NCBI RefSeq assembly: GCF_000196615.1 | Contig: NC_014306.1 | Coordinates: 1,984,001 to 2,048,000 of the forward strand | Origin: Erwinia billingiae Eb661 | GTDB taxonomy: Bacteria > Pseudomonadota > Gammaproteobacteria > Enterobacterales > Enterobacteriaceae | Reading direction: 5' to 3' | Length of the DNA stretch: 64,000 bases | Shown here: piece by piece, positions 3,451-46,121 of the stretch | Numbering within the stretch: the stretch's first letter is position 1 | How the letters are laid out: each line of letters opens with the position of its first letter | Program-made: the position numbers and the translations under genes | Notes under the pieces: model-generated | The model's database searches: none | What the model was told of the DNA's origin: nothing | The model's input: only the letters and a program-made list of their open reading frames with translations

Positions 3451-4298
3451 TGTTGTTGACCGTTTTCGCTATAGAAGTCGGAGGTGCAGAGCGGAGTTTT
3501 ATCGCTGCCTGACGCGGTAAGTTCTTTTGAACAACGTAATATCGACACCTCTTCAGACGGTGGGTAATTAGTGATGTACCACCATTTCTGCGTTCCGCAT
3601 TCGACATTCTTATCGGCAATGAATTTGGTGAAGAATGCGTCGTCTCTTGACGAGTAATTCCTGAACACCTGGCAGTCTTTAACGTTGCCCAACGGTGAAA
3701 AGTCCGGCGCAATATAGGCAGGGATAGTATCGTTGCCCAGATAACGCGTCGCAGCCGTGGTAATCAAAAACGCCATACAACAGGCGATGCCGAAGTAGAC
3801 ATAATGACGCTTGCGATTCTTCTTAACGGCAGCCGGTGCGGAAGGTATTGCGCTGCCGGGGGGTAAAGACGTGATTTCCCCGGCAGAATGAAGGACCGGG
3901 GCAGGCATCGCCATGTTCACCTCATCAGCCGGGCTGATGCTCTCTTCATTCTCATAAACAAACTCCACCGGGAAACCGGCCGGTATCATAAAGCCCCGCT
4001 TGGGCACCGTTCTTATCATCTCACTGGAAACACCCATCGATTCCAGCGCCTTACGCAGTATCGACATGTTCTGGTAAACCGTATTCGGTGAAACCATCAT
4101 TCCCCTTGCCTCCCAGGCAAAGGAAAGCAGATCGCTATGAGAAACAATCTCGCCTTTATGCTGCAGCAAACTTAACAGGCACAGGCTGGCAGGGATGGCT
4201 AAAGCAACCTGATTCTCACTGTCTCCGGCCTTATAAAGAGAGTGCGTGATCGGGGCATACACCACGTTACCCTCAAGCTGAATGGTTTTAATGCCCAT
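3447..4298 (-). CDS. CadC/ToxR-type membrane-anchored winged-helix regulator
   Basis: An N-terminal OmpR/CadC-type winged helix occupies about residues 1-105 (SPNTVYQNMSILRKALE, then VPKRGFMIP as the wing). A Pro/Ala-rich linker, one transmembrane helix at roughly 165-185 and a short periplasmic tail with three cysteines follow. Such one-component regulators bind DNA while anchored in the membrane and sense a periplasmic signal; the signal is unknown. ATG 4298 is preferred to a TTG five codons upstream; neither has a strong ribosome site. The gene overlaps the downstream FidL-like gene by four bases. Confidence 0.82.
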   Translation of the reverse strand: MGIKTIQLEGNVVYAPITHSLYKAGDSENQVALAIPASLCLLSLLQHKGEIVSHSDLLSFAWEARGMMVSPNTVYQNMSILRKALESMGVSSEMIRTVPKRGFMIPAGFPVEFVYENEESISPADEVNMAMPAPVLHSAGEITSLPPGSAIPSAPAAVKKNRKRHYVYFGIACCMAFLITTAATRYLGNDTIPAYIAPDFSPLGNVKDCQVFRNYSSRDDAFFTKFIADKNVECGTQKWWYITNYPPSEEVSILRCSKELTASGSDKTPLCTSDFYSENGQQQ

Positions 4299-4603
4299 AG
4301 TGTCTCGACCCAACCCGGTTGAAATTTCAGTAAAAAATCAAAGTATCACAGAATTATAAGCGCCACTAATGATGCCGGTTCACTTTTTTATCAGGCTTTT
4401 CTCATGTATCTGAAGCGGCTGAGATATCAATGGGTAAATTGCATCAGAACGGATAAGACCGCAGGGCAAAACCCTCAAACCGACTTCAAAATTTAAAAAC
4501 ATCAAAGGCTTCAAAGACTTCATAACAGCATGAGTTGATGCAGGTGCCTGGGCTACCTGATAATAATTATTACGTTCAGGACATGACTAACAAGGGGGCT
4601 CCT
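4299..4603. other. Divergent intergenic region
   Basis: About 300 bases between the minus-strand regulator and the TraR-like gene. The region is AT-rich and should carry the regulator promoter. A reading frame continues upstream of 4604 to 4538, but without a ribosome site. I see no defined repeat or operator. Confidence 0.4.
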
Positions 4604-7965: not shown

Positions 7966-8739
7966 ATGCAATACACCATCAATAATACAATAAAGTATAA
8001 TACGTATGAAGGTTCGTTAACATTAGTGTCGACCAATGACACGTTAACCTTGCCTTTGCCTGCCCGAAGATTAATTGAATTGATTTTAGAATCTGAAGGG
8101 GAAATATTAACCCGCGACTTTTTGTTCGTCGAAGTATGGGATAAATATGGCCTGAGAAGTTCCAACAGCAACCTGAATCAGTATATGAGTATCCTCAGGA
8201 GGAGCCTGGTGAGGTTGGGGTGTGATAACTTTATTGTCACGCTACCGACGGTGGGCATCAGACTGAGTGAAAATGTGCTCATTACGAAAGAAGACGTGCC
8301 AGGGATTCCGCACATTATCAACTCAGAGGATGTCAGTGAACTGGGAAAGTCGTTTTCCTTTTCAAGAAAAAAGATTCTGTCTGTGCTGTTATTGATGCTG
8401 GTCATCATCAGCGGCGGTTTAATTTACAAATACCTGTATACGGATAGTTTAGATCCTACCGCTCAGGTTGTGAAGATGGAAGGTGGATGTGAACTTACTA
8501 TGCTTAAAACCTTTAATGACAGTGAAGTTGCCAATGTGAAGAAGCAAGTGGGAATAATCATGAAGAAAAATCAACTGAGCTGTCAGACCGGTAAACGCGT
8601 CTATTTCGACAATTATGCCTCTTCATCCTTACAAACTTACGGGCGCACAATGCTGTCGTACTGCAGTATTGGTAATAATGGTTATAACATATCTTGTGAA
8701 AATGTTTATTATCTGGACTGGAGTGGTGATGAAAAGTAA
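7966..8739 (+). CDS. CadC/ToxR-type membrane-anchored winged-helix regulator (second copy)
   Basis: 257 residues: a winged helix at about 1-105 (NSNLNQYMSILRRSLVRLG, then TLPTVGIRLS), a short linker, one transmembrane helix near residues 135-153 (ILSVLLLMLVIISGGLIY), and a periplasmic domain of about 100 residues with five cysteines. Its architecture matches the minus-strand regulator at 3447-4298. It overlaps the following FidL-like gene by 11 bases. The 180 bases upstream are AT-rich and should contain the promoter. Ligand and targets are unknown; fimbrial control is plausible because such pairs often lie near fimbrial genes. Confidence 0.82.
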   Translation: MQYTINNTIKYNTYEGSLTLVSTNDTLTLPLPARRLIELILESEGEILTRDFLFVEVWDKYGLRSSNSNLNQYMSILRRSLVRLGCDNFIVTLPTVGIRLSENVLITKEDVPGIPHIINSEDVSELGKSFSFSRKKILSVLLLMLVIISGGLIYKYLYTDSLDPTAQVVKMEGGCELTMLKTFNDSEVANVKKQVGIIMKKNQLSCQTGKRVYFDNYASSSLQTYGRTMLSYCSIGNNGYNISCENVYYLDWSGDEK

Positions 8740-9232
8740 AAGAACGGTCCTTTTTATTACTGTGAGTCTTGTAGTGATTGTTGCCGTGGCGTTGACCGCT
8801 TTTATCGGGCATTGGGTCGTCTGGCGGGAGAGAATCGTTCCCTTTAAATGCACGTTCTTCACCCATTATGATTTTGGAAAAAATCAAAGTGACCTGACGT
8901 TTTCCGTCACCCAGGATATGCGGTTTTATTCGAAAGAATCCGGCTATGTGATTTTTAATGGCAAAGTTACCATCAACGGTGAAACCAAAAAGTTGAACCG
9001 GAGCCTGTTGCTGTCGGACGGCGTATTTTTACAAGGAAAAACCATCAGCTATCATATCAAAGACATGAAAAAATCAATACTGGATGATACCCCCGATAAC
9101 GTGTTTAAAATGTTGTTAGGCGAGTACACCTTTAATCCTGAGACTTTCCAGATTGACATTTTCCCTCTGGATAAAAAAAGTTACATTGTTGGTGGTCCTT
9201 ATTCGTTTACCAGTTCCTGTATCCGCTATTAA
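8729..9232 (+). CDS. FidL-like membrane-anchored periplasmic protein (second copy)
   Basis: 167 residues starting at ATG 8729, with GGAG just upstream and the start inside the 3' end of the regulator gene. One transmembrane helix (about residues 7-25) precedes a periplasmic domain with the same layout as the protein at 2968-3450: a short cysteine-containing strand near residue 40, FNGKVTINGE in the middle (the paralogue has MNGTYF) and a final cysteine near the C-terminus. It is presumably the partner of the regulator encoded just upstream. Confidence 0.7.
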   Translation: MKSKRTVLFITVSLVVIVAVALTAFIGHWVVWRERIVPFKCTFFTHYDFGKNQSDLTFSVTQDMRFYSKESGYVIFNGKVTINGETKKLNRSLLLSDGVFLQGKTISYHIKDMKKSILDDTPDNVFKMLLGEYTFNPETFQIDIFPLDKKSYIVGGPYSFTSSCIRY

Positions 9233-9599: not shown

Positions 9600-9919
9600 T
9601 GTTTTTCCTTTAAGTAAACTAAAATATGTCAATATTTTAGCATGTCGACAAAGATTATCCACTTTGGTTTTTTTGAAGGTGTTGTGATATTTTTAAAATT
9701 TTTTCATAAAACTGTTAAATTCATAGATTTTAAATATCAATATCATTCCGATGGTAGAATAAAAATCTAATTAAGGGTTTTTTTCCCATAAATATTGTTG
9801 CCGCCAGATTAACAAGGCAGCATGACGTTGTGATATATATTGCCGAGGCTGCAATGAGTATAGCTGCGATTTTATATAACACCTGGTTTCTACTTTAACT
9901 TTATTTATGGAGAAATATG
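9600..9919. promoter_or_regulatory. AT-rich leader of the microcin operon
   Basis: About 320 bases, strongly AT-rich, serving the lipoprotein gene on one side and the microcin operon on the other. A TATAAC at 9875-9880 could be a -10 element, but no good -35 is seen. Short frames exist (9642-9770, 42 codons; a hydrophobic frame ending near 9900 without a good start). None is convincing as a gene. Confidence 0.4.
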
Positions 9920-10114
9920 ATGCTGAACAAAACAGCAATGAGTGCTGAACACTGTAAGGAAGTGCGCGGTGGTTGGGGGAGTGGATGGGGCGGCGGCGCT
10001 ATTGGTGGGATCGGTGGCGCCGGTATTGGCGCAATTATGGGTATTCCGGGAGCTGCTGTAGGCGCACTGGTTGGCAGTGCTGCTGGTGTAGCGATTGAGA
10101 AAAGTGCTTCTTAA
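9920..10114 (+). CDS. Class II microcin-like precursor with double-glycine leader
   Basis: 64 residues. An 18-residue leader ends in CKEVRGG, with Val at -4 and Met at -12, the form cut by C39 peptidases. The predicted mature peptide is 46 residues, starts WGSGWGGG and has 26 Gly or Ala, with repeated GxxxG-type spacing and a hydrophobic core (GIGAIMGIPGAAVGALVG). It has no cysteine and ends IEKSAS. Such peptides insert in the inner membrane of target cells. ATG 9920 is chosen over ATG 9917 because GGAG is then seven bases away. The operon downstream encodes a matching C39 exporter, fusion protein and outer-membrane factor. I know no named microcin with this sequence. Confidence 0.85.
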   Translation: MLNKTAMSAEHCKEVRGGWGSGWGGGAIGGIGGAGIGAIMGIPGAAVGALVGSAAGVAIEKSAS

Positions 10115-10144
10115 TCTCGCCTGATATTTTATTCGTCATCAATA

Positions 10145-10168
10145 AGAGGTGGGGTAAACCCCACCTCT
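10145..10168 (+). terminator. Perfect hairpin between precursor and exporter genes
   Basis: AGAGGTGGGG and CCCCACCTCT form a perfect 10-bp stem with a TAAA loop, 30 bases after the precursor stop and 14 bases before the exporter start. There is no U tract, so it is more likely an attenuator or RNA-processing/stability element that yields more precursor than exporter transcript. Confidence 0.6.
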
Positions 10169-10182
10169 GATATTAAGCTATT

Positions 10183-11415
10183 ATGTCAAATCAATTTAAT
10201 CAGTGTTTTACGCGTGCTCCTATCAGTCTTAATTTTTTTTGCGGTGTCATTGCGCTTATGACAGCTATTTTTATGTTGTTATTGCTGAATGGCCGTTATG
10301 GTAAACAAGAAGATGTTAAGGGTTTGATCCGCAGCGAGTCATTTTACCGGCTAACGGCAGAAAAACCCGGAAATGTTTCTGCGATCTACGTTAATGAAGG
10401 CGACAGCGTTAATCCGGGAGATGCCATTTTTAGCGTGGCTTTACTGTGGCAAAATACCAAAGACCATAATGGTGTTGGTAATATGGCCGAGGAGACAACC
10501 AAGCGGTTGAATGAGACGTTAGTGGAATTCGAGACTGAACGAGAAAATCAGTCAGAAAATGATGACCAACTCCTCATTCAAAAAGAACGTTATTTTAACG
10601 AGTTGACACAATCCATCTCCATCGCCGAAAACGCAATCAAAAACTATCACGATAAAAAACGTCTTTATGCCACTCAGTTACGCGATTTAACGCGATTATA
10701 CAAAGACAACGCTATTACTAAGACGGAAGTGGAAAACACCAGGCAGCTGATCATTGAAAATGAGCTGGGTGTGAAAAAAAGTGAGGTTGAAAAGTCTGGA
10801 CTGTTGCAAACTAAAATAGAAAAAGAAATTCATTACGCCAGGCTTGAGCAAGAGTCCTTACAACGTAAAAATGACATCAGCCGTAAAATAAGGGAAATCG
10901 GTAGCGAGTTAAATAATATCCGCATGCGACAGGAATATATTGTCACTTCACCCATAAAAGGGATTGTCCATGACATGGGGATATTGAAAGGGGACTTCAT
11001 TGATGGACGCGCCCTGACGCCATCAGTGATCCTGAAAGAAAACAGCGCTGCAGAACCTGTTGTAGTCCTGCAACTGAGCAGTAAACAAATCGGCCTGATA
11101 AGCCCTGGCGAGAAGGTCTTCGTACGTGTTGATACTTTCCCCTATGAAAGCTATGGCGTTTTGGCCGCAAAGGTCATCAATATTTCTACCACACCGACCC
11201 GGGTCAGTGTGGATGATAAAGAATCCTGGTTCCGGGTGAAGCTGAATATTCTGGCTAATGACAAACATAATAAAATCCCGATGGAATTTCTCGCGGACGG
11301 CATGACCGTCAGTGCCTCATTACGTCAGCCAAAGCAAACGTTAATTGAGTGGTTATTCCTTCCTGTGAAACAAGCCCTCAAACGTAATCCGGATTATATC
11401 CATGCTGAAAAATAA
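10183..11415 (+). CDS. Membrane-fusion protein of microcin export (CvaA/HlyD family)
   Basis: 410 residues. One N-terminal membrane helix (about 15-38, FFCGVIALMTAIFMLLLL) precedes a lipoyl-like half (YVNEGDSVNPGDAIF), a long coiled coil at about 95-250 and the returning half with the family motif VTSPIKGIVHDMGILKGDF. A beta-barrel domain follows (GEKVFVRVDTFPYESYGVLAAKV). It links the inner-membrane ABC exporter to the outer-membrane channel. It overlaps the exporter gene by 14 bases, and its size fits CvaA-type proteins. It stands immediately downstream of the microcin-like precursor, which supports its role in peptide secretion. Confidence 0.9.
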   Translation: MSNQFNQCFTRAPISLNFFCGVIALMTAIFMLLLLNGRYGKQEDVKGLIRSESFYRLTAEKPGNVSAIYVNEGDSVNPGDAIFSVALLWQNTKDHNGVGNMAEETTKRLNETLVEFETERENQSENDDQLLIQKERYFNELTQSISIAENAIKNYHDKKRLYATQLRDLTRLYKDNAITKTEVENTRQLIIENELGVKKSEVEKSGLLQTKIEKEIHYARLEQESLQRKNDISRKIREIGSELNNIRMRQEYIVTSPIKGIVHDMGILKGDFIDGRALTPSVILKENSAAEPVVVLQLSSKQIGLISPGEKVFVRVDTFPYESYGVLAAKVINISTTPTRVSVDDKESWFRVKLNILANDKHNKIPMEFLADGMTVSASLRQPKQTLIEWLFLPVKQALKRNPDYIHAEK

Positions 11416-13504
11416 TGTACGAGATGTCCTACAGGATGAGTGCGCAGAATGCGGTCTGGCCTGTGTCAGTTATATCAGCGCAATGTTTAATAAGACGCTG
11501 CAGTTGCAGACCCTCCGTAACCAGTATGAGGTCACTCTTGAGGGGCTTTCATTTTTTCATCTGATAAAGATTTTTTCCGACCATCAGATGATTGCCACCG
11601 GCGTTCAGGTCGCCGCAGACAGCCTGCGTGAGCTGCAAACGCCGGCAATTTTACTGTGGGATAACTGCCATTTTGTGGTGCTTAAAAAAACCAGCAAAAC
11701 AAAAATCGAAGTCATGGATCCTGCCATCGGCAGCCGTTCCTTCACCTGGCGGGAAGTAGAGAAGTTTTACTCAGGCGTTGCGCTTGAAGTCATACCCGAT
11801 AACAGCTTCGTGGCCGATACGAAAGGGCAGCGCAGGGAAAATTCCGCAGACAATGGCCATTTTTTCAGCGCCAGTGCTTTCAGAAAAGGACTTAAGAGTT
11901 GGAAAAGCTATCTGATCCCGCTGGCGGTGCTGGCGGTGATCATTCAGCTGACCCATATTGCCATTCCTAAGTTTATTTCTTTAGTCTTCGATGAAGTCTT
12001 GTCAAAAAACGACGATGATTTACTGTTTCTGTTGCTGTACATCTTCGGTTTTGTCTATCTGCTGCAGGCGATTGCAAGCTATCTGAAAATCGCCCAAGCC
12101 CAGCGATTAAGAAGGATGTTAAGCCTGAATGAAGGGCACCGGATAGTCAGCGATCTTCTCAACATGGAGTTGAAGTATTTCGGTAAACGAATGGCATCGG
12201 ATATTTTACGTAAAATTAAATCCGTTGATGTTTTCCACATTATCTATACCAATGGTTGGATAGATATTTTCATACAGTCATTTTTTGCCGGTTTATTTGT
12301 GGTGCTGCTGTTTTTCATCAACACCCATCTGGCCATGCTCACCCTTGCGGTGACCTCCATAATGATCCTCGTTAGAGTGTTAATGCTGCCAGAAATGCTC
12401 TCCCGCCAATATGCTTCTCTCGATGCCGAAGTCCGCAGAGATAATGTATTGCTGGAGTCGGTAGATAATATCGATGTGATTAAGATCAATCACAATGAAC
12501 ATCACAGGATCCTGGCATGGTCCGAGCATCATTCAGAGCTGGAATACAATCGCTCCGCAATTGAAAGAACGCAGTCGCTGATTGAATTAATGGTGACGAC
12601 CCTTTCGCATGTTCAGACCTTACTGATTATCGGCCTGGGATCGTTAAGCGTACTGCAGGGTGAGACAACGGCGGGGCAGTTACTGACTTTTATCTTCTAT
12701 AAAAATTGTCTGGTTAATAATATTCAGTCAATTGTCGAAAGTCATGTCAATATCCGGGTGTGTTCCGTTGAGGTTAAACGCTTACAGGAAATACTACCGT
12801 CTGATAAAACGGCTGCGATATCGTTCAAGTCTTCGGTCAAAGAGATAACTGAACCGGTGCGAAAAGTGAGTTTCCGTGATATCAGCTTTGCCTACAGTAA
12901 TCTTGACGATAATTTCATAAAAAACGTCAATTTTGATATTCACGAAGGTGAGAAACTCGTCATCACCGGGCCCTCGGGCTGCGGTAAAACCACCTTAATG
13001 AATATGTTATCGGGCCTGCTCAAACCTACGGCAGGTGAGATTCTGATTAATGATATTTCACTGGCCAGGTTTGGACTTAATCCCTTCCAGCAACAGATCT
13101 CATTGGTGAGTCCTAATGGGAAGTTAATCAAAGGTAACGTGATGGATAATATTATTTTTGAATCCGATCGCTATGATATAACGTTACTGGAGAACTGCAT
13201 CGAACAGGCAGATTTTGCCGAGGTTATCAGAAGTTTGAAATCCGGTTTGAATACCTCGCTCGGCGCTAACGGTACCAGGCTCTCATCCGGCCAACAGCAA
13301 CGACTAATGATTGCCCGAGCCTTGTACCGAAAGCCGCAGCTCTTGCTGCTGGATGAACCCACTTCACATCTTGATGATGAATCGCGTCACAAAATCATTG
13401 CGCTTATTCGCCGCCTGCCCGTCGCCTGCGTGGTTGTCAGTCATGATGCTGCCTTAATAGACAGTATTGAACAGCGGGTGGTTCTGCGGGGAGAGGCCAG
13501 ATGA
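11402..13504 (+). CDS. C39-peptidase ABC exporter (CvaB-type)
   Basis: 700 residues in three parts. A C39 peptidase domain (about 1-135) has the oxyanion Gln11 and catalytic Cys17 in QDECAECGLAC, and a catalytic His in CHFVVL followed by DPAIG. The membrane domain has six helices (about 165-445). The nucleotide-binding domain has Walker A GPSGCGKTT near residue 521, signature LSSGQQQRL near 626, Walker B LLLLDEP and H-loop VSHD. It would cut the double-glycine leader and export the peptide in one step. It ends in ATGA overlap with the acyltransferase gene. Confidence 0.95.
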   Translation: MLKNNVRDVLQDECAECGLACVSYISAMFNKTLQLQTLRNQYEVTLEGLSFFHLIKIFSDHQMIATGVQVAADSLRELQTPAILLWDNCHFVVLKKTSKTKIEVMDPAIGSRSFTWREVEKFYSGVALEVIPDNSFVADTKGQRRENSADNGHFFSASAFRKGLKSWKSYLIPLAVLAVIIQLTHIAIPKFISLVFDEVLSKNDDDLLFLLLYIFGFVYLLQAIASYLKIAQAQRLRRMLSLNEGHRIVSDLLNMELKYFGKRMASDILRKIKSVDVFHIIYTNGWIDIFIQSFFAGLFVVLLFFINTHLAMLTLAVTSIMILVRVLMLPEMLSRQYASLDAEVRRDNVLLESVDNIDVIKINHNEHHRILAWSEHHSELEYNRSAIERTQSLIELMVTTLSHVQTLLIIGLGSLSVLQGETTAGQLLTFIFYKNCLVNNIQSIVESHVNIRVCSVEVKRLQEILPSDKTAAISFKSSVKEITEPVRKVSFRDISFAYSNLDDNFIKNVNFDIHEGEKLVITGPSGCGKTTLMNMLSGLLKPTAGEILINDISLARFGLNPFQQQISLVSPNGKLIKGNVMDNIIFESDRYDITLLENCIEQADFAEVIRSLKSGLNTSLGANGTRLSSGQQQRLMIARALYRKPQLLLLDEPTSHLDDESRHKIIALIRRLPVACVVVSHDAALIDSIEQRVVLRGEAR

Positions 13505-14502
13505 TATCGGGCATCAATGCGAGGCCAGGCCTGCTGCACAGGCGTGTTTTGCTGGCAATGGTTGCCAGGGCAATGGCGGTGGTAGCTACATGGCGATCCT
13601 TATCCACCGCATTGTTATTGATAAACATGGTTTCTGTTTTATTCAGAAGGACGCTTTCTGAATACTATTCAGTCAAGACGGCCATGCAGTTATCTGCAAA
13701 GGTTACCGGTAGGCAAGAGCCATGGTCTGGAAGGCAGCTTATTTTAACCAAGCTAATTTCCCGTTACCTCTCACTGTTCATGTTTTCACATGACTGGAAA
13801 ACGGTTTCGGCTTTGCTGGAGAAGGTTTGTCATCTGTCCGATCCGAATCTGACACAGGCGAAATTGTTGCTCTGTACGCATACCGGAGATTACTGGCTGA
13901 CAATATTAACTCTGGCCAGACAATACCAGGGCATGGATTACGATTTTCTGGTGCCGATATTTGAAGAGATTACCGAAGAAAATGCGCGAAACTATAACCT
14001 GATCGCCATACCCGGCGTACGCGTATCCTTTATCAATATCAACGCGCCAGGCGCGTTGATTAAGATCGCGCGTTATTTGCGGGAGCCGAATAAGGTGGTG
14101 GCTGTTTTCTATGATCTGCCCTGTTATGTGGCCGGGAATTTAACCGGAGCGGTCGAGCCGGTGACGTTTTTTAATAAAAAAGGCCATATGACCACGGGGA
14201 TTATAAAACTCGCCATAAAACGAGCGGTGTGTATGAAACTTGTCTCTAACCGCTATAACGAGGCTTCCCGAAAATTCACGGTGACAACCGCAGCGGTTAT
14301 CGGTAGGCAACAGCATGAAATAAACCATGAAATGGTCGGTTTTCTTGAACGCTATGTCAGGGAAACCCCATGGCAATGGCATTTCATTTCAACCCTAGAC
14401 ACCTATTACCATTTTCCACTGATCGCCCTTCACAGGAAAAACGAAAAAGAGATGCGCCATTTTACTGTGTTAAACAACAAATACCGTCGCAGCTATGACT
14501 AA
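13501..14502 (+). CDS. LpxL/HtrB-like acyltransferase in microcin operon
   Basis: 333 residues. The middle matches the lipid A acyltransferase fold: KLLLCTHTGDYWLT (H127) aligns with the catalytic H-x-G-[ND]-[WY]-[DE] block, then NKVVAVFYDLP, PVTFFNKKGHMTTG, LAIKRAVCMKLVSNR and a final RETPWQW. The position of the usual acidic partner is Trp132; Asp130 could substitute. A hydrophobic N-terminus (about 15-48) suggests membrane association. It overlaps its neighbours on both sides (ATGA with the exporter, eight bases with the outer-membrane factor), so it belongs to the operon. It may acylate the peptide, or modify lipid A for self-protection; both are inference. Confidence 0.7.
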   Translation: MISGINARPGLLHRRVLLAMVARAMAVVATWRSLSTALLLINMVSVLFRRTLSEYYSVKTAMQLSAKVTGRQEPWSGRQLILTKLISRYLSLFMFSHDWKTVSALLEKVCHLSDPNLTQAKLLLCTHTGDYWLTILTLARQYQGMDYDFLVPIFEEITEENARNYNLIAIPGVRVSFININAPGALIKIARYLREPNKVVAVFYDLPCYVAGNLTGAVEPVTFFNKKGHMTTGIIKLAIKRAVCMKLVSNRYNEASRKFTVTTAAVIGRQQHEINHEMVGFLERYVRETPWQWHFISTLDTYYHFPLIALHRKNEKEMRHFTVLNNKYRRSYD

Positions 14503-15889
14503 ATTATTCTCATTCAGGACCCTGTTTATCACCACGACATTAAGCCTGAGCGGGTGTTCTTTGGCGCCTGAATATCAGCGTCCTGACAGCGTGGCCGATC
14601 CCGTGGTTGAGCTGAAAGCCGCGCAGAGCAGCGGCCGTTACCGCTTTCAGGATCTCTACCGGGACGATCCGGCCTTGCTGGCCATTTTGGAAAATGCGCT
14701 CATCAATAACTTTGATCTTCAGCTGGCCATGGCTCGCGTTGAAAGCACCCGGGCGCAAAAGTTGAGTTCGCTGTTTGACCTGATTCCCAGCCTGAATTAC
14801 ACCGCGAGTAAAACAATCTCGATGAATTCGGTCAGTTCGCCGCTCACCAATCAGACGCTTAAACAGAGATCTGAACAATATCAGGGGCGAATGGGCGTTG
14901 ACTCCTGGGAGGTCGATCTGTGGGGCAAAAAGCGCAATAAGATCGCCTCAATGAATAGCAGTGAAGAAAGTCATCGTAGCCTGGTCGCCAATGTGCAGCT
15001 GACGTTGATGTCTGATTTAGCCACAGCCTGGTATGAAGCGCATTCAATGATTCAGGTATGGCATATCTTGCAGATTAAAAAGATCGAGATGCAGCGTATT
15101 GAAGAAAAGCTGATGCGCATTAATCAGCAGGGCAGGTTAAAGCCAATTGTTTTAACCAAGTTTCAGCGGGGTAAAGGCACTGACGAAAGCACCACGCATA
15201 ATCTTGAAGTGGAGATTCTGGCGAGAATACATCAGCTGGAATATTTATCCGGCACGGTTTCACCGGCACTGAACGCGGAGAACTGGCAAACGATTGTGAG
15301 TTACAATGACGCGCCTCAACTAATGCAGGCGATCCGCTCCGACATTATCCTCAACCGACCTGACGTCATCGCTGCCGAATGGCAAATTAAGGCGGCCAAC
15401 GGCAATATTGGCTCCGCTCGTGCTGCATTTCTACCCGGCGTCAGTCTTTTCGCTAATGCGTGGCGTACCTCCAGTTCGCTGGACGGAATAGTGGACAGCT
15501 ATCGTGATAACTGGACGCTGACACCCTCGGTGATGATACCGGTGTTCGACCTGCCCAAACATTATGCCAGCCTTAAATATGCTGAAACCCAACAAAAGAT
15601 GGCGATCATCGATTACCGCAACACCATTGCTCAGGCATTGAAGGAGATTAAAGATGCCACCGATGCCTTACGCCTGTCGCAGGGGAATCTCGCCGTAGTG
15701 CGTGAAGAGCTGAAGGCTCAGTCCGTTAACTTCGACAACAATAAACGCCGATATGAAGCAGGGTATCAGGATTTATATACGCATTATGAAGCGTTGGATA
15801 TTTTCTCTAATGTGCAAATCGAGCTTGAAAGCAAAAGACAGCTGGTCATCCTTAACAGCGTTGCCCTGCTTAAGTCTCTGGGAGGCTGA
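14495..15889 (+). CDS. TolC/NodT-family outer-membrane efflux lipoprotein
   Basis: 464 residues. A signal sequence with lipobox (LSLSGCSLAPEYQRPD) matches the NodT/OprM opening. Two OEP repeats follow, with the conserved first-repeat start (LENALINNFDLQLAMARVE), a second-repeat RSDIILNRPDVIAAEWQIKAANGNIG, and coiled-coil alpha-barrel helices. It forms the trimeric outer-membrane channel for the exporter. Having a dedicated channel is unusual for class II microcin operons, which normally use chromosomal TolC. It is the last gene of the operon and is followed by a bidirectional terminator. Confidence 0.92.
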   Translation: MTKLFSFRTLFITTTLSLSGCSLAPEYQRPDSVADPVVELKAAQSSGRYRFQDLYRDDPALLAILENALINNFDLQLAMARVESTRAQKLSSLFDLIPSLNYTASKTISMNSVSSPLTNQTLKQRSEQYQGRMGVDSWEVDLWGKKRNKIASMNSSEESHRSLVANVQLTLMSDLATAWYEAHSMIQVWHILQIKKIEMQRIEEKLMRINQQGRLKPIVLTKFQRGKGTDESTTHNLEVEILARIHQLEYLSGTVSPALNAENWQTIVSYNDAPQLMQAIRSDIILNRPDVIAAEWQIKAANGNIGSARAAFLPGVSLFANAWRTSSSLDGIVDSYRDNWTLTPSVMIPVFDLPKHYASLKYAETQQKMAIIDYRNTIAQALKEIKDATDALRLSQGNLAVVREELKAQSVNFDNNKRRYEAGYQDLYTHYEALDIFSNVQIELESKRQLVILNSVALLKSLGG

Positions 15890-17389: not shown

Positions 17390-17410
17390 CAGAGGATCAC
17401 AACGTGATTT

Positions 17411-17975
17411 TTAGCGCGGGACTGCGGTGTCACTAGCACCTGAACCCCGCTGACCACAAGCAACTACCGAGGAGTTGATCATCCGGCTGGCTGAGGGGTG
17501 ATCGACGGATAAAAAGATCCCGGCTTGGTGAGAGGGCAGATACAGATGCCTGGCCGATTTTTTCATGATCATATGATCGGCCATCGCGCGCGACGCCCGT
17601 AGAGCTGCAACACCCGGCCACGGCTCTGTGGATCGTAACTCTCTTACCAGCCGACCACCGGCACCACAAGAAAGCGCGCGCGCCGCCAGCCACCCCTGCG
17701 CGCCTTCGTTATCTGGTAAATTACGGTGATAGAAGTCGGTGACCTGGTGTAGCAGGGCCTGGCCGTCTTCGTCCAGATCGGTGAGGATCTGACGGGCCAC
17801 AGTGGCGAAGAAGCGGGGCGCACATAGGTAGTACCGTTCAGTTGCCGCAGCCACAGGATCCCTTGTAGGAAACTCAGCCGTTCGGTATGCCGCAGCCAGT
17901 CCAGCACCGAACCGCCCGCATCGCAGCCGAAGCAGTGGTACAGGTTTTTATCCGCGCTGATGACGCGTAGGAACC
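17411..17975 (-). pseudogene. CHC2 zinc-finger DNA primase remnant
   Basis: In one minus-strand frame, SADKNLYHCFGCDAGGSVLD followed by WLRHTERLSFLQGI reproduces the second half of a CHC2 primase zinc finger and the helix after it. From about 17850 down, a different frame carries ALLHQVTDFYHRNLPDNEGA and GWLAARAL, matching the next conserved block of the same family. The first CHC2 cysteines are missing and the downstream toprim domain is absent. It is thus truncated at both ends and frameshifted. Such primases belong to phage-like and integrative elements. Confidence 0.6.
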
Positions 17976-18156
17976 ACAGCCGGAACTGCCCGCAGAGCCG
18001 GAGGTGGTGAACACGCTGAAGTGGGCCTGTAAGAAGCTCTCTGACCGTAAGCAGCGTGAGATAGCTGCGTTTATCGAACTGGTTGCCACCCCGCAGAAGC
18101 GGCCACGTAAGATCCTGCGGCGAAGCCGAAGAAGGGGAGTGCTGACTGACCGCTGA
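17971..18156 (+). pseudogene. C-terminal fragment of an unknown protein
   Basis: 61 codons without a plausible start, reading PEVVNTLKWACKKLSDRKQ then REIAAFIELVATPQKRPRK and ending at TGA 18154. The composition is protein-like. It abuts the primase remnant on the other strand. A tail of similar form (QRELLAMMEVTAKPKKRSAG) occurs at 24384-24443. The family is not recognised. Confidence 0.35.
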
Positions 18157-18160
18157 AGTA

Positions 18161-18187
18161 AAAATCCCGGCGCAAGGGCCGGGATTT
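18161..18187 (-). terminator. Terminator of the last CDI immunity gene
   Basis: A perfect 10-bp stem (AAATCCCGGC with GCCGGGATTT) is followed on the minus strand by a T run, six bases after the immunity gene stop. Confidence 0.8.
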
Positions 18188-18192
18188 ATGCT

Positions 18193-18552
18193 TTATCGCT
18201 TAGGATAATTGTAGTGTTCAGGAACCTGATAATTTTCAGGTATATCAGGCCATACTGATTTTTTTAATAAAGTATCAGTATCATCTTTAATATCCTCAAA
18301 AAAACCAGATAAACGTAATGAATAAACTCTTATATAGACCAGTGCAGCCTGAACGGCAAGTTCATCACCAGCAGATTTTGCATTTTTTAATAGCGCCGCC
18401 GAATCATTAAGCTTATGTAAATACTGATAAAAAATATCATCAACATCTGATTTCTCATCTATGAGTAATTCATCTTCGACCTCAGAAGACAAACTCGCCA
18501 TCATCTGTACATAACTATCTTTAATATCGTTGAAAAAAGTAGCCTTTTTCAT
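18193..18552 (-). CDS. CDI immunity protein, module 5 (soluble)
   Basis: 119 residues, acidic and helical, without a membrane segment (SSEVEDELLIDEKSDVDDIF). Its start overlaps the stop of the toxin fragment by four bases (ATGA), the standard cdiA/cdiI junction. It should bind and neutralise the C-terminal toxin encoded just upstream. It differs entirely from the other four immunity proteins, which are membrane proteins. The domain is not recognised. Confidence 0.75.
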   Translation of the reverse strand: MKKATFFNDIKDSYVQMMASLSSEVEDELLIDEKSDVDDIFYQYLHKLNDSAALLKNAKSAGDELAVQAALVYIRVYSLRLSGFFEDIKDDTDTLLKKSVWPDIPENYQVPEHYNYPKR

Positions 18553-19322
18553 TTTGGTAAAGTTCTCCCTTCTGCAGCGGCTTTTTTAGCTTTATCAATA
18601 TTAATACTACCATCCAGATTCAGCACTTGAACAAACTTGTTTCTTTTATCAAAGACCTCAAGATGATTTTTATGCTCACCATCCAGATAAAACTGGTCTC
18701 CCTTACGAATATTTTCACTAACATCTGATGAAGCTTTATAAACTGTTTGGCCTTGATATATTTTACTGGTTTTCTGTGAGTTGCCTTTAGCTGCCTCACC
18801 AAAGCCAGACTGTTTAAAAAATTCCCCCATATTTCCCACAGCGCCTTTATTAGGTTCATAAGGCTGTTTATTCGCCTTACCAACCACTCCGAGTGCCGCC
18901 AGCGCCTTACCACCAACGGCCGCACCCAGCCCTATCGCTTCTACTGCTTCCTTACCGTTCAGCGCGACCTTTACATAGTCCGGCATCGCCTGGTAAATCG
19001 CTCTAGCGCTGTCTTCGTTTTCTGCCAGCACAAAGCGATCAAGCTGTGCCAGGTCGTCATTGCTCAGGTCTGAGAACAGAGGCAGACGTTTCAGGCTGTT
19101 GGCAATATCAGAACCCGCAGCGGCCTCTGATAATGCGCCATTGGCACAGAATGGATTACCGGAGCAGTTTTCAGCTACCGCCTCTTCGCGGTTTTTCTTG
19201 CTGACCTCTGCGTATTTTTCGTATATATCCTGCTTGTCAGCACCGGTTTTATCCGCTTCCTCAAGCTCTTTGTGTAGATTAAACACATCTTTGGAGCTTA
19301 AGAAGTTATTCTCAACCATCAT
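18549..19322 (-). CDS. Orphan CdiA-CT toxin, module 5 (probable nuclease)
   Basis: 257 residues beginning exactly at the VENN motif (MMVENNFLSS), so it is a C-terminal toxin cassette without the CdiA delivery part. The pre-toxin region (to about 180) has a CSGNPFCANG cysteine pair, as in VENN pretoxin domains. The last 75 residues are charged and soluble, with YLDGEHKNHLEVFD (D214, H217, H220, E222), reminiscent of the Asp-His-Glu centre of colicin E3-type ribonucleases. No ribosome site precedes it, so it is probably a silent reservoir until recombined onto cdiA. Nuclease activity is inference. Confidence 0.75.
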   Translation of the reverse strand: MMVENNFLSSKDVFNLHKELEEADKTGADKQDIYEKYAEVSKKNREEAVAENCSGNPFCANGALSEAAAGSDIANSLKRLPLFSDLSNDDLAQLDRFVLAENEDSARAIYQAMPDYVKVALNGKEAVEAIGLGAAVGGKALAALGVVGKANKQPYEPNKGAVGNMGEFFKQSGFGEAAKGNSQKTSKIYQGQTVYKASSDVSENIRKGDQFYLDGEHKNHLEVFDKRNKFVQVLNLDGSINIDKAKKAAAEGRTLPK

Positions 19323-19338
19323 CCCGGCTTGCGCCGGG
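19323..19338. other. Short GC hairpin at a module junction
   Basis: CCCGGC TTGC GCCGGG lies between the module 4 immunity gene and the VENN start of module 5. There is no T run on the minus strand. It resembles the hairpins at 18161-18187 and 21916-21931. Confidence 0.5.
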
Positions 19339-19347
19339 GTTAGATCT

Positions 19348-19611
19348 TTAAGGATCTGAAGGAGGGGAGTGGTCTTTATTTGCTTTCATTTTAGCGAGTA
19401 CCCACGAACCTATACCCAGAGGTAGACCTCCTGCGACACTGATTTTAATAGCATATGTAACATCAGCAATACTAAAATCCACCTGACCAAATTGGTAATA
19501 AGCAACGATACCAACACATAATCGTATAAGTAATACCGTCAAAAATAATGATGTCATAGTGCCAGCTGTAAGAACGAATAATAGATAAATGCTAATGGTT
19601 GTAGATTTCAT
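19348..19611 (-). CDS. CDI immunity protein, module 4 (two-helix membrane)
   Basis: 87 residues with two hydrophobic segments (about 8-38 and 52-70) and a basic end (GIGSWVLAKMKANK). It matches the layout of the immunity proteins at 20284, 21941 and 24499. It overlaps its toxin gene by ATGA. An inner-membrane location fits protection against a membrane-active toxin. Confidence 0.72.
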   Translation of the reverse strand: MKSTTISIYLLFVLTAGTMTSLFLTVLLIRLCVGIVAYYQFGQVDFSIADVTYAIKISVAGGLPLGIGSWVLAKMKANKDHSPPSDP

Positions 19612-20204
19612 TTCTTACTCCCATTTTTATCTAATTTATCTTGGAGTGTGCTACCGGTGACTTCAGAACTGATTGCACCAAAGCCTGTGCAGATAATTTC
19701 AGCAACAGATCCTGAGACAATCGGCTGTACTTTATCAACAATGACTTTACCCGTTCCCGCACCTACCGCCGTACCAAAACTGGCACCAACCACAGATGGA
19801 GGCACATCATTCCCCTGCAACTTAGCCCTCACATAGGCTCCGCCAATACTTGCTGCTTCAGTAAACCAGAACCCTTTACCCTGGGTTAGTCCGCTGATAC
19901 CTGTAGCGATAAGTGCATCCGTGGCACTGAAAGGGCCACCACTATTCAATTGATTAAAAATATTTACCAAACCACCAATTGCGCTAGCAGCAATAACACT
20001 TCTCGCTGTTGCTGTAGCGGGCAGAAGAACGGGTGCCACAACTGTGGTCATGCCTGCCCCCCACGCCGTTAATAAGCCGGTTGCCGCATTCTGTCCGGCA
20101 GGTAATTCACCCTTTACCAGCTTGTCAGAAGCATACTTAATTTTCTCTGATGTTGCCGGATTTAGCACTTTGCCAGTTTCATCAGTGAAATTAGTATTAT
20201 TCAC
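19608..20204 (-). CDS. Orphan CdiA-CT toxin, module 4 (Gly/Ala-rich membrane type)
   Basis: 198 residues from a GTG at 20204; the frame is open to about 20236 and begins just beyond where VENN would be (ALGSLVNNTNF). The body is Gly/Ala-rich and hydrophobic (GLLTAWGAGMTTVVAPVLLP, ATDALIATGISGLTQGKGFW) and closely parallels module 2. The C-terminus is variable (SSEVTGSTLQDKLDKNGSKK). No delivery domain or good ribosome site is present, so it is a stored cassette. The toxin is probably membrane-acting, judged from the paired membrane immunity protein. Confidence 0.72.
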   Translation of the reverse strand: MNNTNFTDETGKVLNPATSEKIKYASDKLVKGELPAGQNAATGLLTAWGAGMTTVVAPVLLPATATARSVIAASAIGGLVNIFNQLNSGGPFSATDALIATGISGLTQGKGFWFTEAASIGGAYVRAKLQGNDVPPSVVGASFGTAVGAGTGKVIVDKVQPIVSGSVAEIICTGFGAISSEVTGSTLQDKLDKNGSKK

Positions 20205-20220
20205 CAGCGATCCTAAGGCT

Positions 20221-20259
20221 GAAAATTATTCTGGAAGCCGGTGCTGAAGCCTTCCAGAA
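20221..20259 (-). terminator. Terminator downstream of module 3 immunity gene
   Basis: A 9-bp perfect stem (TTCTGGAAG with CTTCCAGAA) is followed on the minus strand by TAATTTTC. Confidence 0.6.
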
Positions 20260-20283
20260 CACTCAGCCAGTTATTCTCAACAA

Positions 20284-20535
20284 CTATTTATCTTTCTTAT
20301 AGTACTGATAATAAATCCACCAACAACCTATCGCCCCAATTACTCCTCCACCGATACTTCCTTTAAAAATCTTCACATAATCGATAGAAGATAAATCCAA
20401 AGGTAGCCCATGAGAAAAAAAGAAAAACAGCCTTATTAAAATCTGAATAGTTATCGCTGAAATAAATACCCCTCCAGGCAGAGATATCATTAAATAAATA
20501 AAAATAAAAAACCATTTTAAGGACGAAACTTTCAT
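20284..20535 (-). CDS. CDI immunity protein, module 3 (two-helix membrane)
   Basis: 83 residues, two strongly hydrophobic segments (about 6-40 and 58-73) and a lysine-rich end (WWIYYQYYKKDK). It overlaps the module 3 toxin gene by ATGA. It is of the same length and topology as the other membrane immunity proteins of this locus but divergent in sequence, as expected for specific toxin partners. Confidence 0.72.
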   Translation of the reverse strand: MKVSSLKWFFIFIYLMISLPGGVFISAITIQILIRLFFFFSHGLPLDLSSIDYVKIFKGSIGGGVIGAIGCWWIYYQYYKKDK

Positions 20536-21734
20536 TTCTTACCCTCCATTTCTTTCCCTGTCTGATCATTACCATATTCTGTTGTTACAGAACCGGCAAT
20601 GTTCCCTGCAACACCAGGTAACGAGTTTATCGGTAAAGGTTTAGATATCCCAATTCCAACATCAGTCCAAATCCAGTCTTTCCATGGCTTCATTGGATTT
20701 AAAACCTTATCAAGTGGCAACTCAACCAGTTTACCGACACCGTAGCCAAGACCTGAAACTGCTCCACTAATAGCTCCACCTTTAAGTGGATCATCTCCTT
20801 TCAGATAACTGGATGTGGCTCCGCTGGTCGCATTTACGCCCATTGTGCCCCAGAGCCCGGTTCCGGCCGTAAATGCCCCTGTCCAGTAACCCAGAATCAC
20901 ATCATTTGGATTCACTTCACCATTTACCAGTAAACCCACTCCTGCGTTCGCTCCAGCACCAATCAGGCTGGTCGTTGCTGCGGCTCCCGGCAACAATGGC
21001 CAGGCGATAACGCTGCCCACCGCTGCCATCGCTGTTTCACAGGATATCGGTGTCCCGCCGCTACAGGCCTCTTTAATGGCCGCCTGGGTTCCCGATTCAT
21101 AATTCGCGGTGGTTCCGGGTTTCTGCTTATTTGCCGCTGCCAGAATACTTCCTAACGCATTATTCTCCACCGTCGTCTTGCCCGACTGGGCCGCAGATAC
21201 AGCATCCGCACTGCTGTCTCCGATCAACCCGCCTGAAAGGCCTGCGGCCAGCGTAGCCAGCGCGCTTACCTTCTGCCTTTCCGATTCCGTCAGCTCGCTG
21301 GCCGGCTTGCCATAATAGGCCTGCGAGATCATCCCCGTAGCTTCTCCGATCGCTGCACCTGCCGCTCCCACTGCTGCATTCTCGCCCTTTGCCAGCGCCA
21401 GCGCCGCATTGATTGCCGCGTGCGCCATTAGGTTAGCAGCCTGATTGTCTTCTCCAACTGTGTTTTTAACCACAGTTGCCAGATAAGGCGCTGAAGCCCC
21501 GGCCAGTGCTTTAGTTATGTCTCCGCCCGCCAGCCCCTTTACCGCCGCTGTTGCCGCCTGGATAGCCTGCTGAGCTTTACCGCCGGTGCCGAACCCGCTT
21601 TCGGTAAACGCCTTTTTATAGAAGTTCTGGTACGCCTGGCCGCTGATATCGTCTGCCGTTGGCTCTTTGCCCGGATTGGCTTTGCGCCAGTCTGACTCTG
21701 CCGTGTTCAGCTGCTCCGGCGAGACGTCCTTCAT
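20532..21734 (-). CDS. Orphan CdiA-CT fragment with toxin, module 3
   Basis: 400 residues from the first ATG; CdiA similarity starts earlier, at an in-frame stop near 21881. It contains the segment DWRKANPGKEPTADDISGQA found in the main CdiA, the pretoxin region, an intact VENN (TTVENNALGS), and a Gly-rich C-terminal toxin (GAGANAGVGLLVNGEVNPND, SYLKGDDPLKGGAISG). It has no secretion domain. It parallels the main CdiA C-terminus more closely than module 2 does. It is probably a remnant of displaced CdiA ends kept with its immunity gene. Confidence 0.75.
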   Translation of the reverse strand: MKDVSPEQLNTAESDWRKANPGKEPTADDISGQAYQNFYKKAFTESGFGTGGKAQQAIQAATAAVKGLAGGDITKALAGASAPYLATVVKNTVGEDNQAANLMAHAAINAALALAKGENAAVGAAGAAIGEATGMISQAYYGKPASELTESERQKVSALATLAAGLSGGLIGDSSADAVSAAQSGKTTVENNALGSILAAANKQKPGTTANYESGTQAAIKEACSGGTPISCETAMAAVGSVIAWPLLPGAAATTSLIGAGANAGVGLLVNGEVNPNDVILGYWTGAFTAGTGLWGTMGVNATSGATSSYLKGDDPLKGGAISGAVSGLGYGVGKLVELPLDKVLNPMKPWKDWIWTDVGIGISKPLPINSLPGVAGNIAGSVTTEYGNDQTGKEMEGKK

Positions 21735-21915
21735 CTTGTCTTTCGCTGCTTTTGTGGCTTCAATCTGCCCCTGCGTCCTGGCAATATCACCTACCTGATT
21801 GCCAATCTGGCCAATCAGCTGCGCCTCTTTAAGCCGGTTCTGCTCTTTCTCTTTATCAAATATCGGATTGCCAATTTTACCTATCAGCTGAGGACTGATT
21901 GACGGGTAAGCTAAC

Positions 21916-21931
21916 CCCGGTCTGTGCCGGG
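21916..21931. other. Short GC hairpin at a module junction
   Basis: CCCGG TCTGTG CCGGG lies between the module 2 immunity gene and the module 3 fragment. It has no T run and is of the same form as the junction hairpins at 18161 and 19323. Confidence 0.45.
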
Positions 21932-21940
21932 ATTGGCTCT

Positions 21941-22201
21941 TTATTGCTTTGAGGATGGCTCTTCTTTTTGTTTCATCCTGGATAAAATCCAGATACCTAC
22001 TCCAGTGGGGATTCCCACCAAGATACCTCTTTTAATTGAAAAAAGAACATCCTCATGCCAGCCAAAAATGAAATTTCCATTTTTAAAATAAACCAAAATT
22101 GCAGCACATAAGCAGCCTGACAAAAAAGCAAGAATCATGGTAACGATAAAAATTATTATTAAAATAAAAAGGGATTTTAAGCCGTAAGTATTAGTTGTCA
22201 T
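21941..22201 (-). CDS. CDI immunity protein, module 2 (two-helix membrane)
   Basis: 86 residues with two hydrophobic segments (about 10-38 and 58-73) and a basic tail after GVGIWILSRMKQKEE. It is a clear relative of the immunity proteins of modules 1 and 4 (shared GxGxWxL/K ending). ATGA overlap with its toxin gene. Confidence 0.75.
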   Translation of the reverse strand: MTTNTYGLKSLFILIIIFIVTMILAFLSGCLCAAILVYFKNGNFIFGWHEDVLFSIKRGILVGIPTGVGIWILSRMKQKEEPSSKQ

Positions 22202-24369
22202 TTATTGTTTCCCGCATTCTTTAGCTTATCTTCAACTTTACTTCCCGTAGCTTCGCTAATTACAGAACCGCCAATAGTTCCAGCAATACCAGCTGTTTTA
22301 TCTGAGACAATTGGGAAATATTTATTACCAACTTCTACAGCTTTACCTCCACCAGCACCAATTACAGTACCAATAACTGCACCAGCAACAACCGGAAGTG
22401 TATCTTTCCCCTGCAATTTAGCGCCAGCATAAGCCCCGGTGATACTGGCCGCTTCAGTAAACCAGAATCCTTTACCCTGCGTTAATGCACTGACACCAGT
22501 AGCAATAAGTGCATCCGTTGCGCTGAAAGGGTCGCCACTGTTCAACTGGTTAAACACGTTTGCTGAACCGCCTATTGCTCCCGCAGCAATGACACTTCCC
22601 GCCGTTGCGGTAGCTGGTAGCAGAACAGGAGCCACAACGGTTGTCATCCCCGCGCCCCAGGCAGTTAACAGTCCGGTGGCCGGATTCTGGTTTGCTGGTA
22701 AATCACCTTTGGCGTTCTTACTCAGCGCCGCATCGATTTCTTCCGTTGTTGCGCCAGCCTCGATCATTGAGGATCCCAGCGATGCCGCTGCTTGACCGTA
22801 GCTGCCCAGTCCGCCAAGATTGTTTTTATTGGACGAGTTCTTCCCGGCTTGCGCTCCGGCCACCGCATCTGCCGTGCTGTCACCGACAATCCCGCCTGCC
22901 AGGCCCGCCGCCAGCGTGGCCAGTGCGCTGATGTTTTGCTTCTGGTCCTCGCTTAACTGTTCACGCGGTACACCCGGATACAGCTGCTGCGCGATAAACT
23001 CACCGGTGGTTGCCCCTGCGGCTCCGGCCAGTGCGCTGTTGCCGTTTATCTGCGCCACCACCGCACCCAGTACCGCATGAGCCATCAGATTGGCTTGTGT
23101 GTTCACCACATCCTTACCGTCAGGGCCTTTTGTGGTGGTCAGGTTATGAATTTGCTCAGCGAGGTAAGGCGCCGCCGCGCCGCTGACGGCCTGAGCGATA
23201 TTCCCGCCCGCCAGGCCCTGTATCGCAGCGGTGGCCGCCTGGATACCCTGCTGGATGGCGCTGCCTGTTCCCCATTGCTGTTGGGCCGTTTTATAGCCGG
23301 AGGTTTCCGTCAGGGCTTTATTCCAGGCTGCACGTTCTTCCTTCGTGGCATTCTCACCCGGTTCTTTAACGCCTTTCGCAGCCAGCTCTGCCTTACCGGC
23401 TTTTGTGGCTTCTATCTGCCCCTGCGTCCTGGCAATATCACCTACCTGATTGCCAATCTGGCCAATCAGCTGCGCTTCCTTCAGCCGGTTCTGCTCTTTC
23501 TCTTTATCGAAGATTTGTCCCAGGCCCGGATTGGCGTTCTCCACGTCGCGGCTCAAGGCGGCCACGTCCTGTTTCTGCGCGTGCTGGTCGCGAATCACAA
23601 TCGTGCCATCCGATACCGCTGCTTTGGTGGTGCTGTCCGCGCTGCCCGAACCGTTAACCCCGGTCAGCAGGCCGTTGGCCATGTTCCCGGCAAACTGGTT
23701 GCCGATGCTGCCGCCGGTGCTGATGCCCACGCTCTGGTGCTGAACCTTATATTCAGCCTCGTTTTTTATGTCGCTCCAGCCCAGCGTGCCGGTATCCAGC
23801 CTGTTTTTATCCGCATCCGCCGTCGAACCAATAACCGCACCGTTCAGCTGCGTATGTTCACCCACCGTGATATCGAAGCCGCCTTTACCCGCCAGCAATC
23901 CGGTCTGCTCCTGCACCGACTGATAGTCGCTGTGCATCTTATCCTTGCTCATGTTGATGCTGGCCGAGCCGGACATCGAGCCAAAGTTAAAGCTGGCACC
24001 CGCGCTGGTATTTTTCTGCTGCGCGTCGTAGGTCGCGCTGTCCTGTTCACTGGTCAGCGTCAGGTTGCGACCGACATCCGCTTTAATGGATTCGCCGCTG
24101 ACCTGCGCGCCGGTGAGGGTGGTATCGCGTCCGCTGACCAGCGTCACGCGATTACCGGCCGTAACCTGCGTTTCATTGTGGACAAGGCTGTCGCTGTTCT
24201 CATGCCCGCTGCCTTTGTTGATGCTCGCAGAGACGTTGATGCCCCAGCCGCCAGAACCCGCACCGATGCCCACGCCCACCGAGCCGCCGCTGGACGAGTT
24301 GGTGCCGCGTGAGCGTTCGGTGTCCTGGCTGGAGGTCAGGTTGATGTCGCGGCTGGCGTTCAGCAGCAC
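22198..24369 (-). CDS. Large orphan CdiA fragment with toxin, module 2
   Basis: 723 residues beginning inside a filamentous-hemagglutinin repeat (LLNASRDINLTSSQDTERSR) and running through the conserved CdiA region, pretoxin and C-terminal toxin. It lacks signal peptide, TPS domain and most of the filament. Residues 1 to about 325 nearly duplicate the main CdiA; after IEATKAGK it diverges, with a different pretoxin part and SNKNNLGG in place of VENN. The toxin part is nearly the same as module 4 over GLLTAWGAGMTTVVAPVLLP but differs at the end. It begins abruptly at a recombination junction (24381/24382). Confidence 0.8.
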   Translation of the reverse strand: MLLNASRDINLTSSQDTERSRGTNSSSGGSVGVGIGAGSGGWGINVSASINKGSGHENSDSLVHNETQVTAGNRVTLVSGRDTTLTGAQVSGESIKADVGRNLTLTSEQDSATYDAQQKNTSAGASFNFGSMSGSASINMSKDKMHSDYQSVQEQTGLLAGKGGFDITVGEHTQLNGAVIGSTADADKNRLDTGTLGWSDIKNEAEYKVQHQSVGISTGGSIGNQFAGNMANGLLTGVNGSGSADSTTKAAVSDGTIVIRDQHAQKQDVAALSRDVENANPGLGQIFDKEKEQNRLKEAQLIGQIGNQVGDIARTQGQIEATKAGKAELAAKGVKEPGENATKEERAAWNKALTETSGYKTAQQQWGTGSAIQQGIQAATAAIQGLAGGNIAQAVSGAAAPYLAEQIHNLTTTKGPDGKDVVNTQANLMAHAVLGAVVAQINGNSALAGAAGATTGEFIAQQLYPGVPREQLSEDQKQNISALATLAAGLAGGIVGDSTADAVAGAQAGKNSSNKNNLGGLGSYGQAAASLGSSMIEAGATTEEIDAALSKNAKGDLPANQNPATGLLTAWGAGMTTVVAPVLLPATATAGSVIAAGAIGGSANVFNQLNSGDPFSATDALIATGVSALTQGKGFWFTEAASITGAYAGAKLQGKDTLPVVAGAVIGTVIGAGGGKAVEVGNKYFPIVSDKTAGIAGTIGGSVISEATGSKVEDKLKNAGNNK

Positions 24370-24381: not shown

Positions 24382-24383
24382 CC

Positions 24384-24443: not shown

Positions 24444-24460
24444 GACGCCAGACGACAGAT

Positions 24461-24489: not shown

Positions 24490-24498
24490 ACTTATCTT

Positions 24499-46119: not shown

Positions 46120-46121
46120 CA

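Follow-up and report, generated by a model that had tools for sequence, protein, structure and literature searches.

Class II microcins use TolC as their channel, and it is with these small exported peptides that the operon described here is best compared. It lies in a window of 64,000 nucleotides (nt) of Erwinia billingiae Eb661 (NC_014306.1, positions 1,984,001 to 2,048,000), which is the whole stretch of DNA that we analysed, and its five same-strand genes span window positions 9917-15889, encoding in order a precursor peptide, a HlyD-type adaptor, a peptidase C39-ABC exporter, a protein of the LPLAT fold and a NodT-type channel. With the class II microcins MccV (colicin V), MccH47 and those of Serratia, as far as the excerpt of PMC13101503 goes, the locus shares a small double-glycine peptide, a C39-ABC exporter and a HlyD-type adaptor. 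It differs from them in the channel of its own that the Erwinia operons carry, in the LPLAT gene and in a cysteine at position -7 of the leader. The first-pass annotation of this DNA had called the locus class II microcin-type; the peptide, the exporter and the adaptor agree with that assignment, but no small immunity gene was recognised beside the peptide in the window or in its relatives, in lists of open reading frames (ORFs) where small genes can be missed, so that, to judge from the DNA, the locus would lack one of the features by which microcins are defined. Microcin immunity genes are small and can indeed be missed (PMC13101503, excerpt). Our preferred reading, to which we give a probability of roughly 0.42 on the basis of sequence, is that the LPLAT-fold enzyme would fatty-acylate the double-glycine peptide and that a lipidated, microcin-like peptide would be the likely product released.

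Dedicated acyltransferases are found beside other exporters. HlyC-activated RTX toxins have an acyltransferase encoded with their type I exporter, the cargo being a large toxin with a C-terminal signal, and AatD, the acyltransferase of the Aat system, is a relative of Lnt. HlyC belongs to a different family from the window enzyme, for which a Pfam scan at E up to 1 returned only Lip_A_acyltrans and DUF4211 (0.19), with no HlyC-type and no nitrilase-type domain. Lipidated ribosomally synthesized and post-translationally modified peptides, among them lipolanthines and selidamides, use other acyltransferase families, and the Pfam results for our five genes contain no lanthipeptide or YcaO-type enzyme. 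A parallel to what we propose is Aat/CexE (dispersin), in which the export system's dedicated acyltransferase lipidates the exported substrate. In the part of PMC7943197 that we draw on, this system combines type I with Lol-like components and acylates an N-terminal glycine, whereas the window has a C39 exporter and an LPLAT-fold enzyme; we count this precedent in favour of peptide modification. Nostolysamides likewise are ribosomal peptides with a fatty acyl group (PMC13060382, excerpt), and a toxin-activating lysine-acyltransferase-like gene, from a different enzyme family than the window LPLAT, lies near Serratia microcins (PMC13101503, excerpt). Among the matches listed in the open-access literature, outside which most subscription papers fall, no such operon was described, in agreement with the earlier remark that no named system with this gene order is known; the second architecture presented below was not part of that search.

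The five genes form an intact operon. They are tightly spaced or overlapping, as the first-pass annotation had described them: judging by ORF coordinates, 68 nt separate the precursor gene (9917..10114, plus strand like all the others) from that of the adaptor (10183..11415, 410 amino acids), which overlaps the exporter gene (11402..13504, 700 amino acids) by 14 nt, and the LPLAT gene (13501..14502, 333 amino acids) does overlap both its neighbours, by 4 nt on the exporter side and by 8 nt on the side of the channel (14495..15889, 464 amino acids). The LPLAT protein is probably made from a shared transcript. The peptide ORF opens with ATGATG at 9917, immediately preceded by GGAG, which resembles a ribosome-binding site; the second ATG, at 9920, where the gene had previously been taken to start, is an equally possible start. 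The encoded 65-residue peptide, of under 10 kDa, is a double-glycine, Gly/Ala-rich peptide as announced, with the leader MMLNKTAMSAEHCKEVRGG, ending in RGG and carrying the cysteine at -7, and a neutral predicted core of 46 residues. It falls below every Pfam family cut-off (the best values being 0.0021 for Gly-zipper_YMGG and 0.21 for Bacteriocin_IIc), its structure prediction is uninformative (pLDDT 53.8), and its closest homologue, 80% identical, comes from an E. billingiae record. In the export machinery, the adaptor (HlyD_3, 1.2e-9) has a single N-terminal hydrophobic segment, and the exporter combines Peptidase_C39 (3.5e-29), ABC_membrane (1.4e-16) and ABC_tran (5.9e-33), so that the expected pairing of a C39 exporter with a fusion protein, as in class II microcins, is present. 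The C39 domain has Q11, C17, H90 and D106, which we take to be its catalytic residues, and the Walker A (GPSGCGKT), signature (LSSGQQQR) and Walker B (LLLLDEP) motifs are intact. The exporter scores below the NCBIfam cut-off for NHLP bacteriocin export (TIGR03796; 362.6 versus 853.3 bits). The channel matches OEP (6.9e-24) and has a lipoprotein box, LSGC, near its N-terminus.

The LPLAT gene is linked to that of the exporter. Three more Erwinia genomes, two found by a scan of genome contigs and the third (G271, L013) by the genus search, carry the operon with its gene order kept from peptide to channel. With peptide, gene order and leader conserved in three other Erwinia genomes, the arrangement is more than chance. 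The operon sits at a different site there than in the window, 3' of a conserved gene of about 251 codons in all three relatives and, in L003 and L013, also 5' of thrS-like genes (names given by eye). When all candidates were scored, the LPLAT was found in 4 of 37 Erwinia genomes, and these same four hold exporters 59-100% identical to that of the window; at 46 other exporter places in the genus identity is at most 31%, and the A3 profile, searched to an E of 10, matched none of the 20 that were fetched with flanks. Beyond the genus, a search of 72,556 plasmid records with the Salmonella LPLAT returned ten, namely the query's own Salmonella plasmid and nine of E. coli. The Salmonella locus encodes two double-glycine peptides, an adaptor, an exporter and the LPLAT, and the two inspected E. 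coli plasmid loci encode a peptide, an adaptor, an exporter and the LPLAT. In 7/7 operon loci inspected, four of Erwinia and three on plasmids, the LPLAT follows the exporter directly. All four Erwinia operons have a dedicated channel, whereas none of the three inspected plasmid operons contains a channel gene. Some 3 kb upstream of its two peptide genes, beyond reverse-transcriptase- and transposase-like ORFs (by eye), the Salmonella plasmid has a HlyD-like and then a TolC-like frame (L001 800-2413). The latter is 22% identical to the window channel over 122 residues (E 2e-5), and the two frames may belong to another type I exporter. Comparing seven precursors from six distinct loci, the predicted cores are hydrophobic, 27-54 residues long, with a charge of 0 to +2.

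A second arrangement of a C39 exporter with an LPLAT, reached through weak profile matches, occurs in five genomes: G070 (L014/L042), G035 (L091), G144 (L092), G176 (L094) and, of the same genus, G119 (L093). Each row encodes a double-glycine peptide with two to five cysteines (5/5), an LPLAT with an HMVSD motif, a C39 exporter (its frame split in two in G035), MacA-like and MacB-like proteins, an outer-membrane channel and, again in 5/5, a FabF-like ketosynthase and a MaoC-like protein. A DsbA-like protein is found in 4/5, not being recognised in G035, and an acyl carrier protein (ACP) also in 4/5, the stretch fetched from G144 ending before its position; in G070 an SDR-like gene follows the row. 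This looks like a system for lipidated, disulfide-containing peptides with its own acyl-chain genes, and for such genes to accompany an LPLAT and a C39 exporter would make sense if the exported peptide were acylated. A sixth weak match is in G040.

On the reading of peptide acylation, the precursor would dock through its leader on the C39 domain, as the intact C39 residues and the double-glycine leader suggest, while the LPLAT protein, probably sitting on the cytoplasmic side of the inner membrane, would transfer an acyl chain from acyl-ACP or acyl-coenzyme A to the peptide, before or during export. The exporter would then cleave after the two glycines and pass the peptide through adaptor and channel, as in other members of its family, and the released peptide might insert into the membranes of competitors, to judge from its glycine-zipper composition. 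We lean towards acylation of the peptide over modification of the envelope, tentatively and mainly from context, because of the linkage to the exporter, the near-neutral peptides and the second architecture with its acyl-chain genes. We would advance with more reserve still the wider idea that microcin export systems have recruited LPLATs from the lipid A family for peptide lipidation. One type would stand alone, its acid relocated (HX2D/E), and use the acyl donors of the cell; another, elsewhere in Enterobacterales, would have a small fatty-acid synthase to itself, and the two would form a class of lipidated double-glycine microcins that has gone unrecognised. Several observations weigh against peptide acylation. 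No acceptor residue is common to all the predicted cores of the seven precursors, and the core of the E. coli plasmid peptide has no lysine. The position of the canonical catalytic acid holds a tryptophan in 16/16 aligned enzymes, conservation among the four larger proteins is lowest for the LPLAT in 6/6 Erwinia pairs, and a truncated homologue occurs in 21 E. coli chromosomes; in the two inspected, neither an exporter nor a peptide is annotated with it. The LPLATs of the second architecture form a separate lineage in the tree (98/98). Finally, no LPLAT-fold enzyme is known to us to acylate a peptide, nor was one found among the matches listed in the open-access literature.

The alternative that best withstands these data, unlikely as we consider it, is that the LPLAT protein is an immunity factor, acylating the producer's lipid A or one of its inner-membrane phospholipids and so rendering its envelope resistant to the peptide. 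Its family is indeed that of lipid A and phosphatidylinositol-mannoside acyltransferases, and the ORF lists, in which small frames can be missed, offered no other immunity candidate in the operon or its relatives. Its fast divergence is also what an immunity protein might show, though most of the excess falls within the first 109 residues: across 13 Erwinia-type rows these are 17-37% identical to the window enzyme, whereas the core is 42-63% identical. Among the Erwinia operons synonymous sites are saturated in most genes for estimates of the ratio of non-synonymous to synonymous substitution rates (dN/dS). The E. coli chromosomes can be read in both directions. Of 5426 complete genomes 28 have an LPLAT match, 7 of them full-length on plasmids and 21 partial on chromosomes, where the match covers 72% of the gene. 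In the two inspected (L038 9006-9677 and L039 6003-6674) the truncated homologue stands alone, its frame still open and its dN/dS relative to the plasmid copy 0.18 over 216 codons, which we count in favour of immunity. However, these orphans have lost about 80 N-terminal residues and lie in a degraded island with pseudogenes that adjoins tRNA-Sec, and the low dN/dS may predate the truncation. Modification of the envelope would also fit poorly with peptides that are near-neutral and not strongly cationic, and in a genome with three other canonical members of the family.

Less probable again is that the protein has kept its fold but lost its chemistry and now serves the exporter as a docking or assembly factor. 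The first-pass annotation had taken it for a lipid A-type acyltransferase, and fold and family stand: Lip_A_acyltrans (PF03279) is matched over the C-terminal residues 220-296 only, at 3e-5 and 23.8 bits against a cut-off of 22.3, and the predicted structure has the LPLAT fold of LpxM and PatA, although a sequence search of the PDB gave no match for the enzyme alone and its profile reached PatA at an E of about 0.55. What is missing is the canonical catalytic motif. The HX4(D/E) of the family is replaced by H-x-G-[D/E]-Y-W (HTGDYW at 127-132 in the window), the tryptophan at +5 taking the place of an acid that the title of structure 5KNK names as catalytic in LpxM (E127), so that catalysis by the enzyme is not assured. 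By comparison, the three other family members of the genome (E under 1e-94) keep intact motifs, HFLTLE, HFMSLE and HGWAVD. Set against a docking role, an acid is retained at +3 (D in 15/16 aligned members, E in 1/16) and His127, Gly129, Tyr131, Trp132 and Asp205 never vary, down to the most distant members, whose overall identity to the window enzyme is just 14-17%; invariance at such distances is the behaviour of an active site. One homologue beyond the 16 aligned, P0024, has a leucine in place of the motif tryptophan. The protein thus shares with LpxL, LpxM and PatA the predicted fold, a Pfam match over the cut-off and the conserved H and D, and differs from them in its motif, in being encoded with a peptide exporter and in its separate branch in the tree, of moderate support (88/92) and with long branches flagged.

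We give rather little credit to the possibility that the exported peptide, lipidated or not, is a surface-active or signalling peptide and not an antibacterial. That no immunity gene was recognised and that the peptide reaches no bacteriocin family cut-off would fit it, and glycine-zipper peptides need not kill; but Gly-rich double-glycine peptides of other Erwinia C39 exporters begin with leaders that resemble class II microcin leaders, and carriage on plasmids and patchy occurrence fit competition genes.

Least credible among the alternatives is S-acylation of the leader Cys(-7), by which the enzyme would tether the precursor to the inner membrane next to the exporter, the lipid leaving with the leader and the secreted peptide being plain. 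That cysteine is the sole side-chain nucleophile at a fixed place, present in 7/7 precursors and in 0/8 control leaders, in which the position is taken by Ile (6), Met (1) or Val (1) (Fisher p 1.6e-4, from a small sample of related sequences passed through a heuristic ORF filter); the controls were eight double-glycine peptides from six loci, out of 20 Erwinia loci scanned. Position -7 of such leaders is usually hydrophobic and is read by the C39 domain, and the cysteine may simply stand in for that residue; we know of no precedent for an S-acylated leader cysteine. Lipid A housekeeping as the only role of the enzyme was rejected because the genome has three other members with normal motifs.

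If the enzyme does lipidate the peptide, this would be a new chemistry for microcins, a peptide substrate for the LPLAT fold, and a genetically simple way, needing four or five genes, for Enterobacterales to make lipidated antibacterial peptides. Were it an immunity factor, an enzymatic, lipid-based self-protection would stand where a small immunity protein is usual. The host appears to be an Erwinia associated with plants, and the peptide could therefore matter in competition on plants.

Outside the genus, where sampled species genomes were searched with profiles and the first candidates per genome scored, the counts are lower bounds: at least 2/246 genomes match in the family (its own and one weak match), at least 3/394 in the order (own and two weak), or at least 6/394 with the plasmid-type profile A4 (own and five weak), at least 4/369 in the class (own and three weak) and at least 10/398 in the phylum (own and nine weak). 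With only weak profile matches in these samples from outside Erwinia, a wide taxonomic spread was rejected, as was viral carriage, no relative having been found among viral contigs. Of the weak matches inspected, L016 groups with the LpxM-type enzyme in the tree, L040 adjoins aryl-polyene-like genes (by eye) and L041 showed nothing clear. At L015 and L043 (G371) the LPLAT has the motif HSGDF, and its neighbours are a ketosynthase, a 61-residue ORF and MacAB-like genes, the adjoining ABC exporter having no C39 domain. In the protein database the enzyme query gave 16 matches and the profile at least 23 among the 8000 candidates scored, including records of Enterobacter ludwigii, Proteus mirabilis and Yersinia enterocolitica.

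The operon has a G+C content of 46.4% against 54.3% for the window. Window positions 1-24000 matched four inspected relatives only at a neighbouring alcohol dehydrogenase, so that no clean empty site was demonstrated. Between the peptide and adaptor genes, the plus strand can form a perfect hairpin at 10145..10166, GAGGTGGGG-TAAA-CCCCACCTC, seen in the sequence and in the fold prediction and not followed by a run of T. Strong stems of unrelated sequence are predicted in the same intergenic space of L002, L003, L013 and L018, and our guess is that the hairpin of the window perhaps tunes the ratio of peptide to exporter expression. The promoter scan showed no promoter-like site on the plus strand 5' of the peptide gene; the region holds 8 promoter-like sites, against 11.3 in shuffled sequences, and 12 terminator-like sites, against 7.2 (standard deviation 2.8). 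Two pairs of a membrane regulator with a DNA-binding domain and a FidL-like protein lie at 7966-9232 (Pfam) and 2968-4313 (by eye), and the former, upstream of the operon, could regulate it. Next to the operon lie competition genes (by eye), in a large two-partner-secretion/CdiA-like locus at 17400-35950 with an ORF of 2991 codons, partial copies alongside and a transporter-like ORF at 34257-35942. The stretch 41180-49028, also read by eye, encodes LuxR-type regulators together with a pair of large hybrid sensor kinases that resemble BvgS.

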